DNA of 64,000 nt from Dysgonomonas sp. 520 (GTDB lineage: Bacteria; Bacteroidota; Bacteroidia; Bacteroidales; Dysgonomonadaceae). Numbering within the stretch: position 1 is the stretch's first letter; the number at the start of each line of letters is the position of its first letter. The DNA is taken from positions 35,362 through 99,361 of the forward strand of contig NZ_QVMP01000007.1 in NCBI RefSeq assembly GCF_010501095.1, in the 5' to 3' direction. The notes under the pieces were generated by a model that was not told where the DNA came from, did no database searches, and saw only the letters and a program-made list of their open reading frames with translations. Of this stretch, positions 3,412 through 39,153 are shown piece after piece. The translations under genes and the position numbers were made by a program.

Positions 3412-3794
3412 TGATGAAAAAAATAATTGCAACCAACAATGCTCCGGCGGCTATTGGTCCATATAGTCAGGCTATTGAAGTGAATGGAACGATTTTCGTA
3501 TCCGGACAATTACCTATTAACCCATCAACAGGTGAATTTCCTGGTGGTGGAATAAAAGAACAAACAGAACAATCGTTTAAGAATATTAAAGCTATTTTGT
3601 CGGAAGCAGGATTGACTATCAACAATATTGTGAAGACAACCGTCCTATTGGCTGATATGTCCGATTTTGGGGGAATGAACGAAGTATATGCAAAACAGTT
3701 TGGAGAAACATTTCCGGCTCGTTCAGCGTTTGCCGTAAAGACATTACCCAAAAATGCACTAGTTGAAATTGAAGTTATTGCTATGAGATTCTGA
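3411..3794 (+). CDS. ridA: RidA-family 2-iminobutanoate/2-iminopropanoate deaminase
   Basis: This 127-aa YjgF/RidA protein hydrolyses reactive enamine/imine intermediates released by PLP enzymes such as threonine dehydratase. It carries the full family pattern: AAIGPYSQAIEVNG near the N-terminus, VSGQLPINPSTG, and the C-terminal FPARSAFAVKTLPKNALVEIE, whose Arg contacts the carboxylate of the substrate. The length is normal for the trimeric family. The start overlaps the previous stop by 1 nt. A bidirectional terminator follows at 3815-3850. Confidence 0.95.
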   Translation: MMKKIIATNNAPAAIGPYSQAIEVNGTIFVSGQLPINPSTGEFPGGGIKEQTEQSFKNIKAILSEAGLTINNIVKTTVLLADMSDFGGMNEVYAKQFGETFPARSAFAVKTLPKNALVEIEVIAMRF

Positions 3795-3814
3795 TAGATT
3801 GAAAATCAATATAC

Positions 3815-3850
3815 TAAAAAAGACAGACCTCTGATCAGGTCTGTCTTTTT
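3815..3850. terminator. Bidirectional intrinsic terminator between ridA and the FadL-like gene
   Basis: A perfect 10-bp stem, agacagacct (3821-3830) with aggtctgtct (3837-3846) around a 6-nt loop, has an A-run before it and a T-run after it. It can end both the ridA transcript (+) and the converging fadL-like transcript (-). Confidence 0.9.
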
Positions 3851-3873
3851 GTATTATTTAAGATACTGTTCTT

Positions 3874-5313
3874 TTAGAAAGAAAAGTCAACTCCGGCACC
3901 AAAAACTTTATTTGTACGAGAGAAAACATCTTTATTTGTTCCTCCTCCTGGAACTTTGTCATAGTCAGAGTATGTAGTCCAGAAATAAGCTACGTTTATT
4001 TTCACTTTGGGAGAAACGTTAACTGATCCTCCTAATCCGATTGAATAAGAATCACAAGCGAAACTCAAGTCTCTCTGATAATCATTGCCAACACCATATT
4101 TGGTAATCTGTCCTCCGGCACTAACTAAAAACATTTTGTCTATCCTATATTCCAAACCTGCCAGATATTCGTTTGTTGCACCGGCATCTTTTTGCTTGTT
4201 ATCTGCCATTTTAGCATTAGAGTCGAAAAAATGATGATAACCAACACTTGCCGTAAGTTTTGGAGTAATTTTGTACGAAGCACCAATCGTTAACAGAGCA
4301 GGAATATCATGAGCTGTGTTCACCCCATCAGGGAACATTCCTGTTTGGTCTACTTTTGTATTATTCTCTACATCCAAGGCTGTTTTGAACTCATACTTAA
4401 TACCAACATTAAGTTTGTCCTCATAATTAAAGTTAAAACCTATAATAGGAGCAACTCCCCAACCGGATTGCGTACTTTCAAGGTTTACACCTGTTTCGGA
4501 GGATGCCAAATAAGCAAAACCTGCACCCCTGTAAGCAGTTTCAAGTTGTGCCAATTGATTTATTTGCTCTGCTGTTGGATTTTCTATTGCTTTCAATGCC
4601 TGAATTTGTGGTTCCAAAGTACCCATAATACCACCATAAGTTGCATTTGTAGCAGCAGGAGAACCTAGTCGCTCAGCTACAAAGTTTTTCAAATAACCTT
4701 CATATTTATTGCTTACAATATTCAGTCTGAATCCGGCGTATGCAGAAAACATTTTATTTATTTCGTAAGTACCTCCTAGTTGACCTCCAAAAATAAAGTT
4801 AGAACCTTTCATGTGCTGATTTAAGCTATAACCTGATGGAGTTTGTTTATCTGGACTTAAAAGGACTGTTGTTGAACCCATTAGAGCATCGAACGATGGT
4901 AATCCTTTATCAAACGTAGCTTTACCTCCACCACCTGTTACGGCGATACTCCCTGACAAGGCCCATTTACCTTTGCGATATACACCTTGCAAACTAGGAA
5001 TAATAGGAGCAGAAGCTTTTCCTTCAAATTCTTTTGTCTTATTTTCACCATTCAGCATAAAAATATCTGCCGTAGATGTAATTGTCCGTGTTTGAAATGC
5101 ACTTTGATTGTTAAATGAAAAATGAAATCCTTCCGGCAATTTAATCAACCCCGCCGGATTTGTATATACAGCATCAATCTCTGTGGATGCATCACGTGCC
5201 GGATTTCTCAAAAAATGGACACTCTGATTAGTATTAGTAAGAAGACCTCCCGCAAATGCAGACGATGCGTTAAGAATAAGCGCAGCAAGTGCTGCCATTT
5301 TCACAATTTTCAT
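3874..5313 (-). CDS. OmpP1/FadL/TodX-family outer membrane transport protein
   Basis: This 479-aa outer-membrane beta-barrel protein has a signal peptide of about 22 residues ending in ASSAFA. The mature start (GGLLTNTNQSVHFLRNPARDA) matches the FadL-type plug, with the NPA motif seen in this family. The C-terminus ends in an aromatic beta-strand (VFGAGVDFSF) with terminal Phe, as expected for barrel insertion. FadL-family channels pass long-chain fatty acids or other hydrophobic compounds; the substrate here is unknown. It is a single gene with its own promoter (5341-5370, - strand) and converges on ridA. Confidence 0.88.
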   Translation of the reverse strand: MKIVKMAALAALILNASSAFAGGLLTNTNQSVHFLRNPARDASTEIDAVYTNPAGLIKLPEGFHFSFNNQSAFQTRTITSTADIFMLNGENKTKEFEGKASAPIIPSLQGVYRKGKWALSGSIAVTGGGGKATFDKGLPSFDALMGSTTVLLSPDKQTPSGYSLNQHMKGSNFIFGGQLGGTYEINKMFSAYAGFRLNIVSNKYEGYLKNFVAERLGSPAATNATYGGIMGTLEPQIQALKAIENPTAEQINQLAQLETAYRGAGFAYLASSETGVNLESTQSGWGVAPIIGFNFNYEDKLNVGIKYEFKTALDVENNTKVDQTGMFPDGVNTAHDIPALLTIGASYKITPKLTASVGYHHFFDSNAKMADNKQKDAGATNEYLAGLEYRIDKMFLVSAGGQITKYGVGNDYQRDLSFACDSYSIGLGGSVNVSPKVKINVAYFWTTYSDYDKVPGGGTNKDVFSRTNKVFGAGVDFSF

Positions 5314-5645
5314 ATTTATTTAAAATTTAGAAATAGGCAGCAAAGATATTAATCTTTTTTTAGTTTCAAAAAAAACTTTCTGTTTTTAATAAATTGATAA
5401 ACAATAAGATATTGTCTATGCAACTATTTTGTGGTATTCAAAATTTAACATTTTGACGATACGAAAGAATATATACAACTTGTTTTTAGATGATTATGTT
5501 AATCATTACTTAAAAGATGAATTTTATTTTCAAAAGTATTTTTCACCATCTTCAAAACATAATGATTATTTATTATGTTATTAACATTGTACGTTTTATA
5601 ATAAATATTTGTAGTATTTTTGTTTAAAATCATAAGCCTAGACGG
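5314..5645. other. Divergent intergenic region between the FadL-like and lipoprotein genes
   Basis: This very AT-rich region of 332 bp holds the promoter of the - strand porin gene (5341-5370). A TATTTTTG -7-like box at 5615-5622, 24 nt before the lipoprotein start, lacks a well-placed TTTG partner. No gene or repeat is seen. Confidence 0.5.
5341..5370 (-). promoter_or_regulatory. Promoter of the FadL-like gene
   Basis: Read on the - strand, TTTG (complement of 5367-5370), an 18-nt spacer and TATCTTTG (complement of 5341-5348) form a Bacteroidota-type promoter 28 nt upstream of the ATG at 5313. Confidence 0.7.
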
Positions 5646-6164
5646 ATGATGAAGCTATATAATAAGTATCTGGTCATTTTAATTTTTACGATTCTCGCCC
5701 TGCCTTCTTGTACATACGAATATGAGTGGATAAATGATTTGTCGTTCGATTACAGGATGTTACCCGTGGTTGCGAATGGTAATTTTGAGACACATGCTAC
5801 TATCAGGGCAAGCAATATAACAGAAATAGATCCTACGACTCAGGAAATTGCGGATATCATTCTGAAAAAAACATGGATACAATTTTCTGGTGATTTCAAA
5901 CATAACGATAAAGTAGAGCTGCACAATATTGTGGTAGATAAAGACACATTTTATATAAATTATGAATACTCGATAGACAGCAGCGAACCTAAAAGGTTTT
6001 ACTATGAAGATGACGACGATTACGGAGCTTTCATGCAGAAGTCGTTCAACACTTTGCGTAAAAATGGGTTTATACGTGTCTGGATAAACGGGTACAACAA
6101 TACTTCCATGTCGAAATTATATATTACATTGTGCAATGATATAGATGTACAAGTCAGAGAATAA
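5646..6164 (+). CDS. Small lipoprotein of unknown function
   Basis: This 172-aa protein has a lipoprotein signal: a hydrophobic stretch followed by LPSC, with the lipobox Cys near residue 22. The mature part is beta-rich and acidic, with a DDDD run near residue 125, and I do not recognise a family. It probably sits on the outer membrane or periplasmic leaflet. Its 3' end overlaps the start of the large nuclease-helicase gene by 20 nt, so the two are translationally linked even though one product is exported and the other cytoplasmic. Two ATGs lie in tandem at 5646 and 5649. Confidence 0.8.
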   Translation: MMKLYNKYLVILIFTILALPSCTYEYEWINDLSFDYRMLPVVANGNFETHATIRASNITEIDPTTQEIADIILKKTWIQFSGDFKHNDKVELHNIVVDKDTFYINYEYSIDSSEPKRFYYEDDDDYGAFMQKSFNTLRKNGFIRVWINGYNNTSMSKLYITLCNDIDVQVRE

Positions 6165-9100
6165 CCAAGTAAAATATTGTCAACTACTAGCAGATATTGA
6201 GAGGAATAAGGATTTGGATATTTCTCTCAGGGATAAATATATAGAATTGAGGCAAATACTCGATCGCACTTGTAAAGAAATAACCAGAGATGAAGCATTG
6301 CAGTTTTCATCGCTTTTTGCCCGGATTGTTTATATAGCCCAGAAATATCAAATTCCCCGTTCGTTAACAAAACAACTGCATAATATACGCATAACATCGT
6401 CCTTTTTACTGAAAGATGAAAATAATCTGGTTTCGAAGCGTCAATATGAAAAATCAGAGTCTAGCCTCATACAGTTCTTATCTTTGTTTAGCGGTGATGA
6501 AAAAATAGGAGAGGGGAGTACCGTTTATTTTTCGGATGAAGAAGAAGTGGTTCAACCCAATTTTCTCAATTATGTACGGGTAAGTGTTGTTGCTCTAGAT
6601 AAGGTCAATGAGATTATCATCGCAGAAACGGATACGTTGGAGGATAGTATCATCAGGATAAAATATAATGTTCCGAAAATAAATCAGATTTTCAATCCAA
6701 CTATCGAAAATCTTTGGATAGGGGCACAACTCAATCTGTTAAATTCTCACATAGATAAAGATGGAAATTACGTTCCTTCTTTCTTCGTTCTCGAACCGGA
6801 TTATCTGATCGACGCATCGGCTCTTGCCGAATGTTTTCAAAATTACGGGAAGTCTCATCTGCATTATTTTAGGAAAAGATTTGAGCAAAGTCCAAACTCA
6901 CATTATATACTGATGGGTAATCTTGCCAACTTTTTTTTAGATGAATTGATCTTTTCAGACAGTCCTGATACTTTAAAATTTGACACTGTATTTTTAAAAG
7001 CTTTCAAAGAAAAACCATTCGAATTTACAAGTTGCAACGACATAAAACGTCCGGAAGATTTTCGAAATTTTATGGTAAAAGCATCCATTCAGTTCGAAAA
7101 TATAAAGCGGGTTGTAATAGAAGATTTTCCCAAAAATGGGATTGATATAAACAAATGTGTACTCGAACCATCCTTCTTCTCAGAGAAGTATGGATTTCAA
7201 GGAAGATTGGACTTATTGCAGATTTCAGATGTAAATGATAATGTAAATAAGATTATAGAATTGAAATCTGGTGGTTTACCTTATCCAAAACATGATTCTG
7301 GAAAAATATCATTAAACCATGAATGTCAGACAGTTATATATAGACTAACCGTTCAGTCTGTATTAAATATGAGTTCACAGAAGTTAATTTCAGCCATTTT
7401 ATACTCTTCGGCCGAAAACAGAGGCGAAAATTTGAGATTTGCAGCTCCATTTCAAATTTTGGATAAGGAAATAATCAACGTTCGCAATCAGATTATCTCC
7501 ACAGAACATAGATTGTATCAGGGAAGTAGTGACGATGTGTATCAATTATTCCAAGAGATATTTTCGTTGGAAAATTATGGAAAGGTTCCAGATTTTTTTG
7601 TTCATCAAATAGCAGAACTTGAAAAAATGATAAATAATATTTCTTCAATTGAAAGGAAATATTTTTTCAGATTTGTTACATTTCTAACTTCTGAATTATA
7701 CACTCAAAAAATCGGAGGCGACTCTAATGGGTCAAATATTTCGGTTGCTAATTTATGGAATTCAGAATTTATTGAACGGAAAAATAGTTTCGATCTTATA
7801 GACAATCTGACGATAAAAGAGATTGAAACCAATGATAGAGACATGAAAATATTGTTCTCTAAAACAGAAAAAACAGACTTCGCTAACTTTAGAGAAGGTG
7901 ATATTTGCATACTTTATCCTCACGAAAAAGACTCAGATTCTGTACTCACCAGTCAGATATTTAAAGGTACTATTGCCGAAATTTCTGTCGATTCTTTGTT
8001 GCTTCGTTTTAGGTATAAACAGAGAAATAAAGAAGTTTTTGATAGACATAAGTTGTGGGCTATTGAGCACGACAGGTTGGATCATACATATAATAATATG
8101 TATAAGAGCCTGTTTAAGTTCTTAAAGGCATCAGTCGATAAACGTAGCACAATATTGGGGGTTGTAGCACCTCGTATAAGCGATTATTCGAGTACGAGGG
8201 ACGATAGAAACTGCGATCCGATACAGCAAAAACAAGACCGGGTTATAGAAAAGGCTATTGCTGCGAAAGATTATTTTCTTATCGTCGGACCTCCCGGAAC
8301 CGGAAAAACCTCTGTTTTTGCAAAGCGATTGATAGAATACTATTACAATAATACTTCTCAGAATATTTTGATAATAGCTTATACGAACAGAGCTGTGGAT
8401 GAGTTGTGCGAGTCTATAAATCAAGCATTTGGATGTCAAGAATCTGAATGTGACAACTATATAAGGATAGGCTCAGAGTTGTCGTGTGGAGAAAATTTCA
8501 GGCAACAGTTATTGCAAAATATAGCCGGTAATGTCAGTAGGAGAGAAGAGTTACGTAATATACTGAATCAGAAGCGTATTGTAATAGGAACATTGGCTGC
8601 AATAACAGGAAAACCGGAACTGTTTGATATAAAAAAGTTTGATTTGGCCATAATAGATGAAGCATCTCAAATACTTGAACCTCAAATAATTGGTATTTTG
8701 CCTGAAGTTGACAAATATATAATGATTGGGGATCATAAACAATTGTCAACCATCACTTTACAACATACAAACAAATCGAAAGTACTTGATAAAGATTTAA
8801 ATAGCATTAAGCTATATAATTGCAATGAATCTTATTTTGAGCGTATATATAATCTCTGCGTTTCCAATGATTGGACTTATGCATACGATACATTAACTTA
8901 TCAGGGACGGATGCATCAGTTATTAGCAGAATATCCCAATAAATATTTCTACGACAATATACTGAAACCAATTTCAAATTGGCAAACCGAACCTTTAGAT
9001 TTTTTAGTAAAAGAAGATTATAAGAATGTATATCAAAAAATAATTTCAGAAAATAGACTGCATTTTTTTGATACATCTAAATCTGATTTTTGTCATGTGA

Positions 9101-37156: not shown

Positions 37157-37186
37157 TTTGTTTATGCAAAAAAAATAATACCTTTG
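37157..37186 (+). promoter_or_regulatory. Strong promoter for a putative small RNA
   Basis: TTTG at 37157-37160, an 18-nt spacer and TACCTTTG at 37179-37186 form a near-ideal Bacteroidota promoter on the + strand in a gap where no + strand gene follows. The next + strand feature is a terminator hairpin 28 nt downstream. Confidence 0.65.
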
Positions 37187-37191
37187 TACAC

Positions 37192-37250
37192 TGATAATGA
37201 GACACTGAAAAGGCTCTGTCACTTGTAGAGTGACGGAGTTTCTTTTTTTA
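37192..37250 (+). ncRNA. Putative small RNA ending in a terminator hairpin
   Basis: A transcript from the promoter at 37157-37186 would run about 58 nt, from about 37192 to the T-run after the hairpin at 37214-37238. The hairpin is a 10-bp stem (ctctgtcact / agtgacggag, one mismatch) with loop tgtag. A nearly perfect reverse complement of the whole 25-nt hairpin lies at 38290-38314 in front of the secreted-protein gene, with loop ctaca. The RNA could therefore pair with that leader, including loop to loop. The alternative is a simple terminator for the converging AraC gene. Confidence 0.4.
37214..37247. terminator. Hairpin terminator between the putative small RNA and araC
   Basis: The stem at 37214-37223/37229-37238 with 5-nt loop is followed by tttcttttttt on the + strand. 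It overlaps the end of the - strand AraC gene (37248) by position and can also act there. Confidence 0.7.
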
Positions 37251-38054
37251 TAGATATTGTTTAGTTCTGTTTTTTCTTCTGATTTCGGATGGAGAACACC
37301 CCAGATTTTTGTGGCAAAATTCATTGAAATGAGATAAGGTGGCAAAATTATAATTTGTGCTTATCTCTTTCAGGCTTTTGTTTGTTTGGCAAATGTCCTG
37401 ATACACCTGTTTTGCCTTGTGATTTCTCACCCAATTGTATGCCGACGTATTGAATACCCGCCTGAAACGCTTGTTGAACCCTGAATAGCTATAACTCATC
37501 TTCTCAGCCAGTTGGCGCACAGAACGAATCTCCGGCAGATAAGTATGCACCTGCTCCGAAAAAAGAAAATCGTCCCATGCCAACATCTTGAAAAAGCCGT
37601 GCAGATGCTTCTCCGAATAGAAGTTTTTGAGTATGTACCAAAACTCTTTCAGCTTCAAATCCAACAAGTTACAATCGTCAATACCTTTGCTGATATATTC
37701 TTGCAGAACTTGAATATAAGTGACAACTACAGGCTTAATGGGAAGCAGAGCGATGCCTTCTTCTTGTTCTTGCGAACGATGAAGTGATGAAAGAATACAA
37801 CAAAGCTCCGAACGGTTGGAGAAGCCGATTAAGACTATCTCTGACTTCTTCATTGCTTCGAGCGATACTTTATCCTGAAAGGGATAAAAAATCATATTGA
37901 AGGCTGGAATTTTTATTCTGTTGGAGGTTGAAGAAGAGGAATATATTTCACCATCCATAACGATAATTATTTTATTATCCCCCGCTTTCGGGTTCCATAT
38001 TTCACCTTTCTCCAGACGTATAAAATCTATTTGTTTGTCATTTTTGGGTTTCAT
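37248..38054 (-). CDS. AraC-family transcriptional regulator
   Basis: This 268-aa protein has two C-terminal HTH units: SVRQLAEKMSYSYSGFNKRF is the first, and SLKEISTNYNFATLSHFNEF then CSPSEIRRKN is the AraC signature. The N-terminal 170 residues (sensor or dimer part) start with a short cupin-like segment and are not recognised. It is divergent from the secreted-protein gene at 38377, 322 bp away, which is its most likely target. It is flanked on both sides by copies of a 25-bp palindrome in inverted orientation (37214-37238 and 38290-38314). Confidence 0.85.
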   Translation of the reverse strand: MKPKNDKQIDFIRLEKGEIWNPKAGDNKIIIVMDGEIYSSSSTSNRIKIPAFNMIFYPFQDKVSLEAMKKSEIVLIGFSNRSELCCILSSLHRSQEQEEGIALLPIKPVVVTYIQVLQEYISKGIDDCNLLDLKLKEFWYILKNFYSEKHLHGFFKMLAWDDFLFSEQVHTYLPEIRSVRQLAEKMSYSYSGFNKRFRRVFNTSAYNWVRNHKAKQVYQDICQTNKSLKEISTNYNFATLSHFNEFCHKNLGCSPSEIRRKNRTKQYL

Positions 38055-38376
38055 TCAGTTTGTTGTTTAAGTATTTATATATCATCGTGTTAAACGAATG
38101 TATTGCAAAAAAATGTTTGAAAAGCAATCACTTTTTCGCATAAACATCAAGTTATCAACTTCTTATTATTGAGACTTATTCTCATTTTATCAGCATGTTT
38201 TACGTGTGTTAAACTAAAAGCTAATTCGTCTATTTCATATTTCGCTTAATAATTTAAAAATTAGGCAGATACCAACTACAAAAGCATTCCTCTGTCACTC
38301 TACAAGTGACAGAGAGGCAGTATCTTAAAATTCAACACATTAACCGTAAAACAAATCACAAAAACAACAAAAAATT
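38055..38376. other. Divergent intergenic region araC / secreted-protein gene
   Basis: No gene is present. It holds a perfect 10-bp-arm palindrome ctctgtcact-ctaca-agtgacagag (38290-38314), 62 nt before the downstream start codon, and a minor hairpin (tgaga / tctca) near 38168-38182. No clear TTTG-TAnnTTTG promoter is found, which would suit an activator-dependent promoter. Confidence 0.5.
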
Positions 38377-39153
38377 ATGAAAAGAAATCTTACTGTTTTG
38401 TTACTGATTTTATCAGTAACAATAGCAAAATCGCAGGTTGGGATTAATACCGAAAATCCTCAAGGTATATTTCACATTGACGGGCAAAGAAACACGAGTG
38501 GAAACACGAACTTTTCGGACGATGTGGTGGTGGATACCCTAGGCAGGGTTGGTGTAGGCACAAACAGTCCCCAGACTAAAGTTGACATCAGGGCAGCAAC
38601 GGCAGGAGCAGGCTTCCGCTTGCAGGACGGTACACAATCTGTAGATAGAGTACTCACCTGTGATGCTAACGGTAACGGTCGGTGGGCAGCCAGTGGAATA
38701 CAAACTGTCTTGCCGGTATGGAATAGAAAAACAGATTGGACAGTTTCTATCAGTAAAACAAATATCAGTACCGGCACAACAATAACCTTACCTCCCGGTA
38801 AGTGGTGGATTCACGCATCTTATTTGATGAAACTTGATAAATCGAACAAGAATTCTTACTGGGTTAGAGCGAGTTTTACAGACGGAGATGTTCCTATCGA
38901 AACAGAAAATTGCCTTGTAACTTCAGATGTAGTACAAAGATTTTTAATTTCAGGATCAATAGGTGTAAGTGCAAATTTTTCGTCAATAACAGGAGGTATT
39001 ATTCTTGATAATCAAACCAATTCCCCCAAAACATATACTGCTATAATCGTTTATATAGATGGAAGTGCTATTTTAGAAGATGTTAACTTAGTACACTTTG
39101 CTCAAGGTAGTTGGGGAGAAGACAACATGATTGCCATAAAAATACAAGACTAG
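38377..39153 (+). CDS. Secreted beta-rich surface protein (GIN-repeat start)
   Basis: This 258-aa protein has a signal peptide ending AKSQ. The mature start VGINTENPQGIFHIDG and then RVGVGTNSPQTKVDIRA are two copies of a pattern common in secreted, tail-fibre-like or adhesin proteins of Bacteroidota. The C-terminal 150 residues form a beta-sandwich-like domain with PPGKWWIHASYLMKLD. The function is unknown; cell-surface exposure is inferred. It is a single gene, probably controlled by the divergent AraC regulator. A terminator follows at 39167-39205. Confidence 0.75.
   Translation: MKRNLTVLLLILSVTIAKSQVGINTENPQGIFHIDGQRNTSGNTNFSDDVVVDTLGRVGVGTNSPQTKVDIRAATAGAGFRLQDGTQSVDRVLTCDANGNGRWAASGIQTVLPVWNRKTDWTVSISKTNISTGTTITLPPGKWWIHASYLMKLDKSNKNSYWVRASFTDGDVPIETENCLVTSDVVQRFLISGSIGVSANFSSITGGIILDNQTNSPKTYTAIIVYIDGSAILEDVNLVHFAQGSWGEDNMIAIKIQD

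Follow-up and report, generated by a model that had tools for sequence, protein, structure and literature searches.

The locus described here, from Dysgonomonas sp. 520, raises the question of what a pair of complementary hairpins around a regulator gene does for the surface-protein gene that follows. It lies within a stretch of 64,000 nucleotides of contig NZ_QVMP01000007.1, which is referred to as the window. Promoters were called with the Bacteroides-type consensus of -33 and -7 boxes. The same consensus is also given in the available part of a B. fragilis paper (PMC4747536). Beyond the end of a U32-peptidase gene, such a promoter occupies positions 37157-37186 of the forward strand, with TTTG at 37157-37160 (-33) and TACCTTTG at 37179-37186 (-7). 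It is followed, without a gene, by a hairpin at 37214-37238 and the T-tract TTTCTTTTTTT at 37239-37249, which together with an extended stem form a predicted intrinsic terminator at 37211-37249 on the same strand. The stretch 37192-37250 folds at -19.7 kcal/mol, compared with -10.4 +/- 2.65 kcal/mol for shuffles, 1/200 of which was equally good. An earlier note on this DNA had pointed to a promoter followed by a terminator and no gene, and both are borne out; judged from the sequence, the short terminated transcript of about 58 nt that it predicted is likely. The complementary hairpin that it had placed before the secreted-protein gene is present as well: the mirror hairpin at 38290-38314 lies 62 nt upstream of the ATG at 38377 and is complementary at 24/25 nt, with loops TGTAG and CTACA. 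The chance expectation for the hairpin pattern in the window is 0.00 (100 shuffles). The AraC regulator said to lie between the hairpins is an open reading frame from 38054 to 37248 on the reverse strand, encoding 268 amino acids with a C-terminal helix-turn-helix above the cut-off (HTH_18, E 3.2e-16; HTH_AraC, E 2.3e-08; PF12833 and PF00165). An Rfam scan of the window found no family at gathering score.

The reading favored here, with a probability of roughly 0.86, is that the region is a phase-variation switch operated by site-specific DNA inversion and that the hairpins are putative tyrosine-recombinase sites. On this reading the hairpins are complementary because a single recombination site is present twice, in inverted orientation. 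Its consensus is TCYGTCACT-n5-AGTGACRGA, that is, 9-bp inverted arms around a 5-bp asymmetric center. The predicted araC-3' site at 37215-37237 (forward strand, TCTGTCACT-TGTAG-AGTGACGGA) doubles as the terminator stem, and its center, TGTAG at 37224-37228, is identical to that of the other site read inverted. This second predicted site, at 38291-38313, is TCTGTCACT-CTACA-AGTGACAGA on the forward strand. The segment predicted to invert runs from center to center, 37224-38304 (about 1.08 kb), as judged from inversion in silico and from two reversed paralogs, L048 and L068. The earlier proposal of an RNA plus protein switch for the surface protein was probably right about a switch that involves the AraC gene, but RNA-RNA pairing is not its likely mode.

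The plan of the locus is repeated throughout the genome. With up to two mismatches, TGTCACT-n5-AGTGACA occurs at 91 places, compared with 6 for the reversed control pattern. A search of the genome with the window AraC protein gave 46 matches, one of them the query. Within 40 stretches, nearly all taken around these matches, a site stands on each side of 39/43 AraC matches, and in these 39 elements the sites lie 1050-1190 bp apart. The four matches without two usable sites (the second of L042, L045, the first of L060, and L062) were left out. Thirty-nine is a lower bound: a few further elements are lost at the ends of contigs (L045, L074). The contig of L074 (G000:C13:1-6000) starts at one site (103-125) with a surface gene behind it, and the other half of the element is absent from the assembly. 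L060 (G000:C67) has, within 5183-7067, an AraC fragment that adjoins a run of N and, by eye, a transposase-like open reading frame, and it is probably a broken element. L042 (G000:C54) has at 7889-8635 an AraC paralog without sites, two genes beyond a secreted gene of the QVTIG type.

The centers are identical within a pair in the inverted register in 38/39 elements and in the direct register in 0/39, while pairs shuffled 5000 times, which preserves the make-up of the elements but not their relatedness, matched in at most 11. The pairs were selected by stem alone. Sixteen different centers occur among the 39 elements. On the best AraC tree, at least 23 changes are needed for the center, read from one of the two sites (shuffled mean 29.5), and the center of the second site tracks that of the first in all present-day pairs but one. 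The only unmatched pair, TGTAG and TGGTA, belongs to the first of two tandem cassettes in L040 (G000:C22:193500-208000).

Loops that change together in paralogs are also expected from an antisense small RNA. In that case the loop of the RNA of about 58 nt would pair with the hairpin in the surface-mRNA leader, the mRNA would be repressed, and the pairing would keep the loops matched. The near-perfect complementarity, a predicted duplex of -57 kcal/mol between the short RNA and the leader, and the promoter and terminator without a gene agree with this view. The stems of the 39 elements do not. On the strand of the short RNA, the outermost core pair is T-A in 24, T-G in 14, C-G in 1 and C.A in 0 (n=39). 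In the upstream hairpin on the surface-mRNA strand, in contrast, it is a C.A mismatch in 22/39; the window copy is a perfect stem. This indicates that an RNA structure, a terminator, has been maintained in the first hairpin, and that no RNA hairpin has been maintained in the second. Further support for the terminator comes from the flanks, since stem extension by matching outer and inner flanks sums to 272 pairs over the 39 elements (the promoter-side flank being taken for L048 and L068), compared with 182 in the largest of 2000 shuffles. The mean extension is 7.0 bp at the araC-3' site and 2.8 bp at the araC-5' site. At least 7 T in 9 are found just inside the araC-3' site in 37/39 elements, all but L059 and L068, and at the araC-5' site in 2/39. 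In L059 (G000:C1, 4650-5796), where the promoter-side site lacks a T-tract, the inner flank of the other site is the better pairing partner for the promoter-side flank.

The relatives provide a second test of the antisense view. A search of genome contigs with the site pattern gave 52 stretches, 28 of them with a matched pair within 2.5 kb. Among the other 24, some lie in distant phyla and are probably chance matches, and others are truncated where the stretch stops. Site pairs in Dysgonomonas, Tannerellaceae, Parabacteroides, Bacteroides and Alistipes flank short segments or segments that carry araC. Seventeen related araC pairs were taken without requiring a match, and a screen of them for unmatched centers found none (17/17 matched). 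Not included are L224, L229 and L234 (duplicates of L166, L160 and L174), L237 (which shares its araC with L167), L201 (truncated before its far site) and L228, a weak cyanobacterial one-site match. Recombinase-type arms with the same centers beside the regulated gene, the inverted-repeat arrangement of an inverton, are found in 38/39 own and 17/17 related araC pairs. The T-tract inside the site is absent from the relatives, where the longest T-run there is at most 3 in 17/17. The earlier note had suggested co-variation in relatives as a check; the loops do match there. Because the centers match where the short-RNA terminator is missing, recombination and not RNA pairing appears to keep them matched. 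The antisense view also leaves the reversed elements and the recombinases that adjoin 16/17 related pairs unexplained, and taken as a whole it is improbable. RNA pairing may nevertheless occur on top of inversion.

The relatives differ among themselves in their promoters. An outer promoter at the araC-3' site is found in 13/17 related pairs, the strict box being missing in 4/17, and 12/17 have an inner promoter pointing out, which is the classical invertible-promoter form. L167 and L174 are among the few with a T-run of 7-8 outside the site, which could stop the transcript of the inner promoter. In Parabacteroides sp. PH5-46, closely related recombinases accompany short segments (L192, L204, L213 and L214; sites 647-681 bp apart) with the same kind of surface operon downstream. 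The strict form of the site is present in 3/393 genomes drawn from the order, of which this genome has 73 strand-counted matches and the other two have 1 each, and a looser pattern is found in 7/101 genomes of the family, this genome included. A protein scan of genome contigs with the window AraC found no relative, and a plasmid search gave no match.

The reading as an inversion switch calls for a recombinase. A tyrosine recombinase adjoins all of the related araC pairs but L231, an araC fragment scored as without one, whose contig stops 29 bp before the site. In 15/16 recombinase-adjoining pairs it stands tail to tail with araC; in L166, from Dysgonomonas, the segment is turned and the promoter is likewise at the other site. 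Three site-linked enzymes of relatives were scanned and carry Phage_int_SAM_5 and Phage_integrase domains. No recombinase was found next to the window locus, as none of the 21 recombinase matches of the genome is on its contig. The best match of the genome to a site-linked Dysgonomonas recombinase, at G000:C6:55267-56535, has 53% identity (next best 33%) and lies within 6 kb of element L068. It possesses an HVARH motif and a late tyrosine, which we take to be catalytic residues. When analyzed phylogenetically, it falls among 25 site-linked enzymes (support 96/99), beside those of D. hofstadii and G065 (97/89) and apart from 9 other own recombinases. The tree comprised these 25 and 9 of the other 20 own-genome matches, and the split, partial or distant enzymes at L162, L164, L198 and L222 were left out. 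Judged from its relationships, this is the likely enzyme of the switch and would act in trans on about 40 loci.

If the segments invert, both orientations of a locus should exist in a population. In 36/39 elements the surface gene is found past the araC-5' site and divergent from araC; between site and start there are 13-164 nt in 34 elements, and 321 nt and 621 nt in the other two. L044 reaches its contig end before any surface gene. In the remaining two, L048 and L068, the first gene past the araC-3' site is the surface gene, co-directional with araC; the promoter stands at the opposite end. A leave-one-out comparison of the outer flanks, blind to genes, called 37 elements normal and exactly L048 and L068 reversed; the separation comes mainly from the promoter side, and their surface-gene sides score about equal. 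The promoter-side flank of L048 pairs over 7 bp with the inner flank that is now at the far site. When L048 is turned back, the predicted terminator is strong, with -26.9 and 8 T in 9, compared with -12.4 and 6 T in 9 in the present form. L068 is divergent on the AraC tree, and its T-run is on the side now facing the promoter. The opposite orientations are found in paralogs at different loci (2/39 own, 1/16 related), the own elements all coming from a single assembly of the species. Because 37/39 elements stand one way, flipping would be rare, biased or partly lost, and free inversion at equal rates is ruled out. In L062 (G000:C5; about 5007, 5157-6008 and 6357-6379), an AraC gene is in line with a secreted gene. 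One end has a good site and the other no more than a half-site, so that L062 looks like an element locked ON.

The same observations bear on two further explanations. The hairpins might be palindromic operators of the AraC protein, through which it regulates its own gene and the surface gene without any DNA flip. The flanking of 39/43 AraC matches by sites and the partial correlation of the AraC phylogeny with the centers (23 changes, compared with 29.5 on average after shuffling) would fit operators. However, operators do not predict identical centers in a strictly inverted register, with 0/39 direct, nor the reversed copies, the linkage to recombinases or short site pairs without araC, and this explanation is slightly less probable still than an antisense RNA. 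A short pair of this kind is present in L042 at 3695-4111, where two sites 394 bp apart, with centers tccta and tagga, lie upstream of a secreted gene of the QVTIG type. A small transposon or cassette that carries araC, with the sites as its terminal inverted repeats, would account for dispersed copies with inverted ends at a near-constant distance. It is very improbable, because conservation continues beyond each end, into the promoter at one and the surface-gene leader at the other, centers differ between copies and match within them, and araC is the only gene-sized annotated open reading frame inside the window segment.

Returning to inversion, the arrangement of promoters indicates how the switch may work. 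A strict TAnnTTTG box outside the araC-3' site, pointing at the site from 29-31 nt away, is present in 36/39 elements. The box of L061 and of L048 has one mismatch and that of L068 is strict; in the two reversed elements, L048 and L068, it stands at the other site. Overall, a fixed promoter faces the araC-3' site in 37/39, 36 of which have the T-tract and would be OFF, as the window locus would be. In this present form, the fixed promoter at 37157-37186 would produce only the RNA of about 58 nt, ending at 37214-37249, where the stem of the terminator is formed by the recombination site itself, with the T-tract immediately within the segment. With no TAnnTTTG box in the window between araC and its start, the surface gene at 38377-39153 would be OFF; one box pointing at it lies inside araC, at 37682. 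Between araC and the far site, a box aimed at the surface gene is present in 6/39 elements, the window not among them, so the OFF state may leak. A box for araC itself in the araC upstream region is found in the OFF form in only 2/39.

We infer that recombination between the centers would turn 37224-38304 round in the window locus and move the T-tract away from the promoter, so that transcription would resume and run from the promoter through araC into the surface gene. In the in-silico inversion, the AraC reading frame of 268 amino acids starts at 37474 and the surface gene remains at 38377. AraC would then be made together with the surface protein and perhaps activates the locus or holds it ON. 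After inversion the stem is still stable and the T-tract is lost, but a TTTT follows a few bases on and the inverted form was flagged as weakly terminator-like, which leaves some doubt about read-through.

The product of the window gene is a predicted secreted protein of 258 amino acids, encoded on the forward strand, from a family with a conserved N-terminus and a variable C-terminus (37 aligned). It matched no Pfam or NCBIfam family at the thresholds used, searching the PDB by sequence yielded no credible match (best E 0.71), and a single-sequence AlphaFold2 model had a mean pLDDT of 32 and no usable fold. Thirty-eight surface proteins were recovered from the 39 elements, one being cut by a contig end, and all fall in one single-linkage BLAST group (E 1e-3). 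In the QVGVNTENPQG class (n=25), median identity is 67% over 60 residues from QVG on and 22% over the last 110. Their sequences suggest a shared base that bears exchangeable heads.

The closest known counterpart is the CwpV switch of Clostridioides difficile, worked by RecV, in which, according to the available part of the report, a promoter stands outside the inversion region with its 21-bp inverted repeats before a surface-protein gene, an intrinsic terminator at the junction of repeat and segment is proposed for the OFF form only, and about 5% of cells express the protein (Emerson et al., 2009; PMC2784873). As far as that text describes it, the loci here share the outside promoter, strict or with one mismatch as counted above, the inverted repeats before a surface gene, a terminator that is predicted for the OFF form, and a recombinase that is not beside the switch (PMC2784873). 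In the same account CwpV is one locus with 195 bp and no gene between the repeats, whereas at least 39 loci are found here, with segments of 1.05-1.19 kb that carry an AraC gene; also unlike CwpV are the site core that is itself the terminator stem, the matched 5-bp centers and the Bacteroidota host (PMC2784873). The principle is that of the CwpV switch, and the scale, the paired centers and the flipped regulator are new parts.

In the Vpma system of Mycoplasma agalactiae, genes of one clustered locus are shuffled past a single promoter, unlike the loci here, which are dispersed and each have their own promoter. Its switching surface lipoproteins are multiple, according to the available text (PMC2268961). 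In B. fragilis, the accessible part of one study describes the recombinase BF2766/Tsr19 as acting on IVp-I and IVp-II, with an ON share of 1.03% for IVp-I in the inoculum (PMC4747536). The likeness lies in one recombinase with local and distant invertible regions before genes for surface components, but there the promoter itself inverts, whereas the window promoter is outside the segment (PMC4747536). The invertible-promoter type of fim and B. fragilis was not found at the window locus, where no TAnnTTTG box points outward within 110 nt inside the araC-3' site; such an inner promoter is present in 6/39 own elements, compared with 12/17 related ones. Mpi of B. fragilis, in the portion of its report available, is one master enzyme for at least 13 scattered inversions, which resembles the arrangement proposed here, but it is of the serine type and uses a different repeat motif (PMC5903667). 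The word AraC is absent from the main text, as available, of a 2025 survey of gut invertons (PMC11892184). Topic searches of full-text literature, made without the letters of the site, gave no listed title and no consulted passage on the site or on AraC genes carried within invertible segments in Dysgonomonadaceae.

A wider scheme is tentative and on balance doubtful. One master recombinase would operate about 40 addressable on/off switches, with the site as the silencing terminator and the 5-bp centers as addresses that limit cross-over between loci. Each flip would deliver a surface protein together with its own AraC, and few of the approximately 40 modular surface proteins would be shown at a time, AraC perhaps enforcing the choice.

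If the inversion reading is true, the Dysgonomonas family would have a large phase-variable surface repertoire that uses a terminator switch instead of the usual invertible promoter. Natural sets of sites that differ mainly in the 5-bp center would provide a test, within one chromosome, of how strictly a tyrosine recombinase depends on a matched center, and the differing centers are a possible source of near-orthogonal switches. Finally, the flipped regulators would make this organism a case for asking if one-at-a-time expression is enforced.
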